Assembly (NCBI GenBank): GCA_022785125.1
Contig: JALFRA010000007.1
Coordinates: 124,001 to 188,000, forward strand
Reading direction: 5' to 3'
DNA from: Clostridiales bacterium
Lineage (GTDB): Bacteria > Bacillota > Clostridia > Oscillospirales > Oscillospiraceae
Length of the DNA stretch: 64,000 bases
In this document: one piece after another, positions 8,178 through 56,998 of the stretch
How the letters are laid out: the number at the start of each line of letters is the position of its first letter
Numbering within the stretch: position 1 is the first letter of the stretch
The notes under the pieces: generated by a model
Seen by the model: the letters and a program-made list of their open reading frames with translations, nothing else
Databases searched by the model: none
Told to the model about the DNA's origin: nothing
Made by a program: the position numbers and the translations under genes

Positions 8178-8180
8178 GAC

Positions 8181-8373
8181 TTCAAAAAAGTGACAAAGTC
8201 ACTTTTTTGAGCAGGATGCAGCCCGCTGCGCGCAGAATTTGTCCATCTTTGATGGATAAATTCCACACTTACGGTCTGAGAAGTGTTTTGGCCACGCGTA
8301 TGTCGCGGCCAAAAACGGATTTCGATTTTATTGCGCCGCCTGCGGGCGGCGCAACTCTGCGAGGCTTTTTTAA
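8181..8373. repeat. Structured intergenic repeat, copy A
   Basis: A non-coding segment between argR and recN that recurs, diverged, at 49823-49992. It begins with a perfect 12-bp hairpin with an AAA loop (8183-8209; T-rich 3' arm, so it may also terminate argR transcripts). Then come GCAGCCCGC-T-GCGCGC (8218-8233), an AT-rich hairpin at about 8236-8262 that the other copy lacks, a stem TTTTGGCC/GGCCAAAA around a 13-nt loop (8286-8314), a GC hairpin with a TGCG loop (8333-8352) and a tail ACTCTGCGAGGC (8354-8365). Function unknown; it could be a mobile MITE-like element or a structured RNA. Confidence 0.75.
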
Positions 8374-8403
8374 TCAACGTGCCTTTCTAGGGTGGTGGCC
8401 TAT

Positions 8404-10164: not shown

Positions 10165-10436
10165 TATGACACTGCGATGACAGGGAGAAGTACCAACCCC
10201 CGTCCCGCCCAGAGAGCCCCCGGTTTGGTGAGAGGGGGAGGGGACAGGCTGGGAAATACACTCTGGAGCAGCCGCCTGAACAGGGGAGACCCCCAGTAGG
10301 GCCGTGTCGGGTGCGCCCGTTATCGCGCCGCCGTGTGTTGGCACGGCATAAGGCCGTTTTTGCGAGAAAACGGCGAACCAGAGGTGGTACCGCGTTTTTA
10401 CGCCCTCTGTCCGAATGGACAGAGGGCTTTTTGCAT
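10165..10436 (+). ncRNA. T-box leader, tyrosine-specific
   Basis: A T-box riboswitch that senses uncharged tRNA. The T-box core GAGGTGGTACCGCG is at 10381-10394 and is followed by an intrinsic terminator with an 11-bp stem, CCCTCTGTCC/GGACAGAGGG (about 10401-10433). Stem I shows GGGAGAAGTA (10183-10192), the AGTA-type bulge. The specifier is probably TAC (Tyr) at 10257-10259 within GAAATACA, followed by a purine as usual. The T-box bulge TGGT would pair with ACCA, fitting the A73 discriminator of tRNA-Tyr. Uncharged tRNA-Tyr should favour antitermination into the zinc-ribbon gene and tyrS. Confidence 0.92.
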
Positions 10437-13567: not shown

Positions 13568-13589
13568 CTCCAAAGAATAACTAAATATG

Positions 13590-13738
13590 TTTCCGAGCCG
13601 TGGAGTCTAAGGCGAATGCTATGACTTGCGGCCTGACTGTCTGTTGACAGTCACTGAGTTATGCCGGAAACAGCATAGCTTTCCGTGTTTGAGAAGGAAA
13701 CAAGACTGCTATGGCCTGCTAAAACTGTAGGTGCATGG
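13590..13738 (+). ncRNA. Structured leader RNA, candidate Moco/Tuco-type riboswitch
   Basis: A non-coding leader just after a consensus promoter. It starts TTTCCGAGCCGTGGAGTCTA, continues AAGGCGAATGCTATGACTTG, then a perfect hairpin TGACTGTC/GACAGTCA (13632-13651), a hairpin TATGC/GCATA whose loop contains GGAAAC (about 13660-13677) and TTTCC/GGAAA (about 13680-13700), ending GGCCTGC. The GGCGAA...ATGACTT blocks and the FmdE plus FecCD-type transporter genes downstream resemble my recollection of molybdenum/tungsten cofactor (Moco) RNAs. I could not align it to a model, so the ligand class is tentative; that it is a structured regulatory RNA is more secure. Confidence 0.5.
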
Positions 13739-22911: not shown

Positions 22912-23112
22912 CCGACCATACCAGACAAAAGCAGACAGCACTCCGCCGCAGCTGCGGCGACAGTCGAACGGATCTTATCCGGGCGACCAGGCAAACGCAC
23001 CACCGGGAGCGTCCCTTCGGCGGCCTCCCCTTTCACGCGGTTCACCGGGCCCGGCGCCCTCACCACGCTACTCCTGAAGAGCCGCGCCTCTATCCTGCAA
23101 ATGTAATTTCGC
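22912..23112 (-). ncRNA. Lysine riboswitch (L-box)
   Basis: Read on the minus strand, this leader contains the conserved L-box elements in order: ATAGAGGCGCGGCTCTTCAG, AGTAGCGTGGTGAGG, GGTGAACCGCGTGAAAGG, GGAGGCCGCCGAAGGGAC, GCCTGGTCGCCCGG and GGCGGAGTGCTGTCTGC. It follows a minus-strand promoter and precedes a terminator hairpin and asd-dapA-dapB, so high lysine should stop transcription of the whole lysine/diaminopimelate operon. Confidence 0.92.
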
Positions 23113-49778: not shown

Positions 49779-49786
49779 CAATTGTA

Positions 49787-49816
49787 AAAAAGGAGCGGTC
49801 AGACCGCTCCTTTTTT
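49787..49816 (+). terminator. Terminator hairpin, left flank of repeat copy B
   Basis: AAAAAAGGAGCGGT/ACCGCTCCTTTTTT with loop CAG. Nearly identical to the hairpin at 50000-50030. Confidence 0.85.
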
Positions 49817-49822
49817 GAAAGC

Positions 49823-49992
49823 TTCGAAAAACCGGCAAAGCCGCTTTTTCGAGAAGGCTGCAGCCCGCCGCGCGCGGACAGAGTCCACCCTTGCGGGCTG
49901 AGCAGTGTTTTCGTCCACGCACTTGTCGCGGCCGAAAACAGATTTGGACTTTTTTCACGCCTGCGGGCGCGAACTCTGCGAGGCTCTTTTGA
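49823..49992. repeat. Structured intergenic repeat, copy B
   Basis: Second copy of the element at 8181-8373. The first hairpin keeps the AAA loop but has different stem bases (TCGAAAAACCGGC/GCCGCTTTTTCGA, 49824-49852). GCAGCCCGC-C-GCGCGC (49860-49875), the stem TTTTCG(T)CC/GG(C)CGAAAA around loop ACGCACTTGTCGC (49908-49938), a shorter CGCC/GGCG hairpin with the same TGCG loop, and the ACTCTGCGAGGC tail (49973-49984) are in the same order as copy A. It lacks the AT-rich insert of copy A. Confidence 0.75.
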
Positions 49993-49999
49993 CAAACTG

Positions 50000-50030
50000 A
50001 AAAAAGGAGCGGTTCCACCGCTCCTTTTTT
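50000..50030 (+). terminator. Terminator hairpin, right flank of repeat copy B
   Basis: AAAAAAGGAGCGGT/ACCGCTCCTTTTTT with loop TCC; differs from 49787-49816 only in the loop. Confidence 0.85.
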
Positions 50031-56481: not shown

Positions 56482-56533
56482 GGGATTTTGCAAAAAAAGA
56501 TGGACCGGAGCTGCACGCTCCGGTCCATCATAT

Positions 56534-56998
56534 CTGCAAGTAAGCCTGTAAGCCGGGTTCTGTCCTTTAAGACAGCCATCTATCTCGACGCACCGTTGCC
56601 GGTACGCTCAAGCCGCCTCCCCGGGACGGCCGGGCCGGCCTGTTGTCCCTCCACGGCGTTGCTCCGGATAGAGTTTACAGCGATGGACTGTTCCCAGCCA
56701 TCGGGTGAGCTCTTACCTCGCCTTTCCACCCTTACCTCGTCGGCGCAAGCTTCAGATCACTCGCTTCCCCGCAAAGCGGCAAAGCTCGCCCCTTTCGCTG
56801 CGCCTCCTCTCCCCACGAAAGCAAACGCTTTCGCGGGGGCCCCATTAGAGGGGAACCAAGGCGGTATATCTCTGTTGCACTTTTCCTAGGGTCGCCCCCG
56901 GCGGGTGTTACCCGTTATCCTTGCCCTATGGAGCCCGGACTTTCCTCACCCACGGGCCTTTCGCCCCGCAGGCGCGGCTGTCCAGCTTGCTTGCCCGA
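56534..56998 (-). ncRNA. rnpB: RNase P RNA, bacterial type A
   Basis: The catalytic RNA of RNase P. Read on the minus strand it has the 5' P4 region GAGGAAAGTCCGGGCTCCAT, the conserved AGGGTGAAA-like CGGGTAACACCCGCC block, and near the 3' end ACAGAACCCGGCTTACAGGC, which are the universal core segments. The whole length is about 465 nt by promoter and end placement; the exact ends are estimated. The gene is divergent from murD. No protein frame in this stretch is real. Confidence 0.95.

Follow-up and report, generated by a model that had tools for sequence, protein, structure and literature searches.

We find that a folded intergenic element, present twice in the window (the whole 64,000-nucleotide stretch of DNA that was analysed), belongs to a dispersed family that we judge to be probably a non-autonomous, MITE-like element moved by IS1182-family transposases, which duplicates the terminators it inserts at and whose hairpins are kept as DNA palindromes. 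A preliminary description of this DNA had proposed a dispersed family with paired stems and no Rfam counterpart; all of this stands, but its nature as a mobile element was unforeseen. The features of the two window copies are as follows.

8178..8374, + strand: copy A, whole element, between argR and recN; its right end has decayed and a target duplication was not found
8182..8210, + strand: H1 of copy A, the 13-bp hairpin at the 5′ terminus, with an AAA loop and an outer arm that overlaps the left-end motif
8218..8276, + strand: P2 region of copy A, GCAGCCCGC...TTACGGTCTG, with inner hairpin GAATTTGTCCATC/GATGGATAAATTC
8275..8369, + strand: conserved core of copy A, modelled as R1 (98.6 bits)
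49786..49816, no strand assigned: left copy of the duplicated terminator palindrome of copy B; a single hairpin in empty-site relatives
49817..49999, + strand: copy B, end to end; right end CTTTTGACAAACTG
49897..49988, + strand: conserved core of copy B (R1 73.4 bits); H4 with one A.C mismatch
50000..50030, no strand assigned: right copy of the duplicated terminator palindrome of copy B; its loop is TTCCA, that of the left copy TCAGA

Copy A begins at about 8178, directly past an argR-like stop codon, and ends at about 8374. Its core consists, in order, of TGAGAAGTG, the H3 stem with a GC-N3-TGTC loop, a linker, H4 with a TGCG loop and a AACTCTGCGAGGC tail. Direct reading of the sequence confirms that copies A and B share one set of blocks in the same order and on the same strand. 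As DNA, copy A folds far better than chance (z = −7.84; 0 of 200 shuffles as good).

The covariance model and family search that had been proposed as a check were run with R1, a model of the element's 3′ half (H3 and H4 with their flanks) built from nine copies. In the source genome (2.97 Mb, 43 contigs), where a DNA search with copy A as query gave many further places, R1 gives 24 matches at E ≤ 1.1e-12, both window copies included, and thus a dispersed family rather than a mere pair; the next match has E = 1.1e-3, and 22 of the 24 remaining listed matches overlap the strong copies, on the opposite strand. Several of these copies lie at contig ends, where near-identical repeats are expected to be found. 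The core was found in 60 of 101 sampled genomes of the GTDB family, the source genome included (E ≤ 0.01; 59 of 100 genera; a few matches weak), three of which hold at least 41 scored candidates each. An order-level sample gave R1 matches at E ≤ 1e-4 in 24 of 197 genomes, 12 in the family and 12 across five other families, with the strongest matches outside the family coming from one genus. Scanning named genomes for the core pattern returned at least 118 stretches; among the matches listed (80 of them) the hosts are mainly Flavonifractor, Pseudoflavonifractor, Intestinimonas, Oscillibacter, Sporobacter, Evtepia and other Oscillospiraceae or Clostridia. We presume chance to be behind the matches in Mycolicibacterium, Hoylesella and a Phycisphaerales MAG. 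Ten stretches on viral contigs in IMG/VR (L346-L355) also have the core pattern, being either phage-borne or host contamination.

Comparison of the window stretches with Rfam at gathering score gave no match to the element, and a low-threshold comparison of copy A and three other loci gave just weak, unrelated matches, in agreement with the earlier view that no named family fits. Elsewhere in the window Rfam identifies a T-box leader (10168-10410, +), a molybdenum cofactor riboswitch (13579-13715, +) and a lysine riboswitch (22928-23100, −). The RNase P RNA of the window (56533-56993, −) is about 460 nt long, compared with about 345-360 in many genomes of the family and more than 500 in some relatives, so that the window copy has an insertion or expansion.

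Copies A and B each lie 3′ of one gene and before another on the same strand, as had been described, but this does not extend to the family at large. Five copies of the source genome (L009, L011, L012, L019 and L025) are by eye beside the start of an opposite-strand gene, and neighbour orientations at 40 loci are mixed (17/11/7/5 by a crude open-frame count). Gene orientation was dropped as a functional clue, the open-frame method being too crude.

The preliminary description had named a match to a known transposon end as an outcome that would speak against it. Related genomes contain IS1182-family insertion sequences whose ends do match those of the element, CAGNCTGTCRAAAA, and which likewise abut hairpins; the ends of the element also come with target duplications. 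Full copies carry terminal inverted repeats, CAGNSTGTCRA... and ...TTTTTYGACAGNCTG, which are decayed in copy A; the left end is recognisable in 34 of 80 copies. Between duplications the element spans about 180-270 bp, too short for a transposase gene, so that it can at most be a derivative of an IS1182-family element. Multiple short dispersed copies, non-coding to judge by their length and with terminal inverted repeats, are what is expected of a MITE.

Duplications were scored on 80 R1 matches (the source genome, 20 places each in genomes G064 and G066, and others from the top of the list), which is not a random sample; five with too little flank were dropped. Thirty-six of the remaining 75 copies lie between direct duplications (score ≥16), compared with a null, pairing the left flank of one copy with the right flank of another (n = 400), whose median is 8.5 and 95% point 11.5; its 99% point of 64 probably comes from two copies in one locus (L123). 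The other 39, copy A included, have no duplication at this threshold, L079, L023 and L081 among them looking duplicated by eye, and the duplication of L022, one of the 36, belongs to a surrounding element. Duplications flank 19 of the 20 fetched copies in G064 and five of the 20 fetched places in G066, plus a neighbouring copy (L123b), two of these lying off convincing palindromes.

The duplicated sequence differs from site to site (for example AAACGCCGGGGATACCCCGGCGTTT); what recurs is a palindrome. One or both copies of the duplication fall on a palindrome of stem score ≥8 in 33 of the 36 cases, the exceptions being L076, L127 and L136, and in 31 the limits of duplication and palindrome lie within 3 nt of each other on at least one side (L136, with its weak palindrome, is counted here). 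Aligned duplications are 16-50 bp long, mostly 20-40, and their correlation with palindrome length is just 0.50, some alignments overrunning into the element ends. IS1182 elements in ISfinder have a wide range of target lengths. Directly outside the left end, a palindrome of score ≥8 is found in 33 of the 34 copies whose left end is recognisable, compared with a median of 4 and 95% and 99% points of 6 and 9 in 400 random 45-mers. At two contig ends of the source genome (the right end of C20, L015, and the start of C10, L018) the same terminator, AAGCGGAGCGCAGTC..., accompanies elements that belong to two subtypes, a picture that two insertions into a single bidirectional terminator, leaving three copies of it, would give. 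In L082, L084 and L089 an H4 tail motif (CTCTGCGAGGC-like) is repeated directly downstream of the core.

Empty sites are available for copy B, whose two flanking terminator palindromes, 31 bp each, were absent from the preliminary description. A query spanning site B matched 18 of 20 same-genus genomes, one of them (G114) solely through elements elsewhere, leaving the site itself matched in 17 of 20, the source genome included. It is filled there and in the sister genome G022, whose element is 97% identical. Twelve genomes give split matches that overlap by 30-39 bp in the subject, an overlap that corresponds to the single terminator present twice in the query; in three others (G101, G113 and G118) both flanks match without overlap. 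Of 12 loci that were read, ten are empty and carry one hairpin each. In G022 both hairpin loops are TCAGA; its two hairpins do not differ from one another, nor from the hairpin at the empty site of G106 and G108. Judged from these sequences, site B thus shows an insertion with duplication of the hairpin.

As to the mover, a transposase gene in G066 (L145) belongs to the IS1182 family (NF033551, 385.9 bits, cut-off 270); the ends of its element read CAGACTGTCGAARAA, and the same palindrome flanks both, with the loop inverted on one side. With two differences allowed, the ends are common to L145 and four further IS1182-type elements (L174, L175, L177 and L178), and eight of these ten ends abut a palindrome of score ≥9. 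The two flanking hairpins are the same in L145 alone; they differ in L175 and L177, which duplication alone does not explain, and L174 and L178 have a clear hairpin on one side only. From the shared ends we infer that the element is moved in trans by an IS1182-family transposase. Close homologues of the L145 protein (E ≤ 1e-50) occur in 4 of the 101 family genomes, against 60 for the element, and most carriers therefore have no L145-type transposase; old MITEs would look so, and other movers are possible. A DDE_Tnp_1_6 search found genes in three of 12 carrier genomes and one gene in the source genome (contig 37, L043). The latter was rejected as the mover since its ends differ and it scores 131.8 bits against the IS1182 cut-off of 270; it is a different IS1182-like gene with ends TGACATTAAGGTCAAAAGGG, adjoining by eye an open frame resembling a conjugation coupling protein.

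A search of 17 IS1182 or transposase-gene loci, some of which overlap, did not find the core (no R1 match better than E = 0.67), and its origin as a leftover of such an insertion sequence was rejected on this count. In the L040 region one copy sits inside an element that lacks the core but has the same ends, and whose hairpin is doubled. The core is therefore not needed for mobility and is cargo or an aid rather than a requirement. This nested arrangement lies in the source genome at C12:137200-137520 (L022, L040), the outer element being placed between two copies of the hairpin AACCGGCGGGCTGCG....

Across the 80 R1 matches (75 distinct) 95.3% of cells pair, compared with 80.1% in shuffles, and 19 of 23 pairs have changes on both sides. 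That the stems change in sequence yet keep pairing, as first claimed, holds well: 268 cells are changed on both sides, compared with 65.6 in shuffled alignments and 12-45 in slid structures, and the covariation score is 0.442 against 0.156 when shuffled. Because the structure guided the alignment and the sequences share ancestry, the size of this excess matters more than any probability; covariation nonetheless supports the helices, as it would those of a structured RNA. Details of the fold needed revision. The hairpin described as having a 13-nt loop is present, but it has a stem of 13 bp, in which an internal A.C mismatch is frequent, and a loop that in most copies measures 7 nt (C-N3-TGT); the first stems do keep pairing, but that of copy B has one mismatch. 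Upstream, a search that disfavoured mismatches found a P2 stem of at least 6 bp in 63 of the 80 copies; its arms take several unrelated sequences, and some of these assignments are perhaps chance. The same search did not find the outer P2 stem in copy A. Two further pairings were dropped: a pseudoknot CACTT/AAGTG seen by eye in type-a copies, because many G064 copies have CACTA with AAGAG, and a closing pair between 5′ TGCAG and 3′ CTGCG, because changes in the former are not accompanied by changes in the latter (e.g. L010, L090).

H1 varies from copy to copy. Among 40 copies with the same 5′ arm, the other arm is mismatched (TTCGA) in 28, matched (TGAGA) in 10 and unclassified in two, and the switch splits copies with identical cores (L112 from L110, L111 and L113; L018 from L016). 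Loops are inverted in L113, L145 and, by eye, L081. H1 is short or very long in eight G064 copies (L103, L106, L111-L113, L116, L117 and L121), the long form being a near-perfect extension of both arms even among copies with identical or near-identical cores. In the accessible text of PMC8794818, stem extension and inverted loops are footprints of template switching. Arm toggling, inverted loops and long symmetrical H1 extensions would all suit passive hairpins, that is, palindromes made by template switching around a functionless core, with the loops alike through subfamily ancestry and through retrieval by a model biased to conserved letters. We regard this as unlikely on account of the core. 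In 30 non-redundant copies, retrieved with R1 and hence favouring conserved letters, mean column identity is 0.91 for the TGAGAAGTG block, 0.91 and 0.93 for the loops and 0.89 for the tail, against 0.84 for the H3 stem and 0.71 for the H4 stem, whereas under pure neglect loops would be expected to decay no more slowly than stems. Such decay is seen in the linker (0.68). This pattern points to the loops being read by something, and we prefer the view that it would be folded DNA that is recognised during mobilisation.

The same conservation of loops and unpaired blocks beside variable stems, together with the strong covariation and the IS1182 loci without a core (so that the element is not simply a shortened insertion sequence), can also be taken to indicate a structured non-coding RNA family, either a gene or a 3′-UTR element, kept for its RNA fold and with the transposon ends as a mere vehicle. 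Here the kind of base pairs is informative. In H3 and H4, omitting one column pair that is often A.C mismatched, G-T makes up 8 of 1582 standard pairs (0.5%), and A-C mispairs number 14. In RNase P, our only RNA control (from 18 genera of the family, using 18 of the 30 loci fetched and an RNAalifold structure prediction), G-U accounts for 209 of 1702 pairs (12.3%), against 22 A-C. The difference persists at varying pairs (0.6% in the element, 7.0% in RNase P) and in subsets below 85% identity (1.1% and 12.1%; 30 and 16 rows), and the P2 stems, from a search that penalised mismatches, have 5 G-T and 8 A-C in 504 pairs. Thus, an RNA-like tolerance of G-U, as judged against RNase P, is not seen. 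A low number of G-U pairs may also be a feature of very stable RNA hairpins. In the accessible text of PMC6993869, RNAs and single-stranded DNA viruses are reported to differ in the same way. Copies moreover occur in both gene contexts (by eye and from the crude count), and copy B speaks against strong host constraint on the core: its H4 has an A.C mismatch at a position that is paired in the G022 copy, and its DNA fold is unremarkable, little better than shuffles (z = −1.32; 18 of 200 as good). We consider a family kept for its RNA fold to be improbable. Selection on folded RNA or DNA had been left as alternatives; that pairing is kept is upheld, but the near absence of G-U, no commoner than A-C, makes it lean to DNA. 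Taken with the toggling of H1 arms, it suggests that the hairpins are better explained by maintenance as DNA palindromes than by a folded RNA.

We therefore return to the mobile element that duplicates terminators and propose how it may work. An element of about 180-270 bp would be moved in trans by IS1182-family DDE transposases acting through its ends, CAGNCTGTCRAAAAAG. The target would be the palindrome of an intrinsic terminator, most likely extruded as a hairpin or cruciform, and the two strands would be joined at opposite feet of the stem-loop, with repair then copying the whole terminator, so that duplication and hairpin would be equally long and neither neighbouring gene would be left without a terminator. 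The interior, comprising the 5′ terminal hairpin and two or three more with conserved loops, would be kept as DNA palindromes, with template switching re-matching the hairpin arms, and the conserved loops suggest a reader of the folded DNA during mobilisation. More tentatively, insertion might be silent by design, the cut at opposite feet of a cruciform handing terminators to the neighbours, with an interior read as folded DNA and a covariation that arises at the DNA level; we hold this stronger form to be possible, though doubtful. If it were true, covariation alone would misfile the element as a new RNA class of gut Oscillospiraceae.

At site A the history appears less simple. The query matched 19 of 20 same-genus genomes. 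Among 12 loci read, those of the source genome, G101 and G113 are occupied, by elements whose subtypes visibly differ; in G110 a remnant some 38 bp long is left, and the remaining eight have no element; the differing subtypes and the remnant suggest that the argR-recN spacer has probably been hit more than once. A hairpin present at this site in G106, G108 and G115 is absent from the source genome, so copy A may have replaced its target, much as IS1272 and TnSha1 of the IS1182 family, in the accessible text of PMC5678879 and PMC4923244, insert at hairpins, several of which are confirmed terminators, and remove these wholly or partly without duplication. As an account of the family, however, such replacement, with twin terminators that are independent or arise by later tandem duplication, is very improbable, being contradicted, for copies with duplications, by the single hairpin in empty site-B relatives, the identical twins of G022 and the doubling in almost every fetched G064 copy; it may hold for some without them, such as copy A.

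Duplication of a whole hairpin is drawn in the accessible text of PMC5678879 only as a hypothetical pathway b, and the copies described here provide natural examples, with empty sites, of this branch of the IS1272 model. They suggest a route by which a genome could gain dozens of copies without its genes being stripped of terminators. Among the top-listed papers of the open-licence literature we found no report of this element family, nor of whole-hairpin duplication beyond the proposed pathway, which is weak evidence of absence, and a limited search of work on prokaryotic MITEs found none of stem covariation across genera.

Set against the accessible descriptions of IS1272 and TnSha1, the element shares an IS1182-family transposase (here the putative mover), hairpin targets chosen by structure rather than sequence and a variable target length. 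It differs from them in that the whole hairpin is duplicated and in that, unlike these coding elements, it is non-coding with a multi-hairpin core. Like QMITE2 and BOX/RUP/SPRITE, as far as the accessible text of PMC10969869 describes them, it is short, non-coding, intergenic and strongly folding, with terminal inverted repeats, many copies and target duplications; those of QMITE2 are 7-9 bp, whereas here they are mostly 20-40 bp and set by the terminator palindrome. For RNA discovery the family is a warning that covarying stems, even when shared by many genera, can be part of a DNA transposon; weighing G-U against A-C is a cheap test that may separate the two. The element resembles the structured RNA families of Rfam in its ordered hairpins, conserved loops and covarying stems, and differs from them in having no gathering-score match in the window and almost no G-U pairs.
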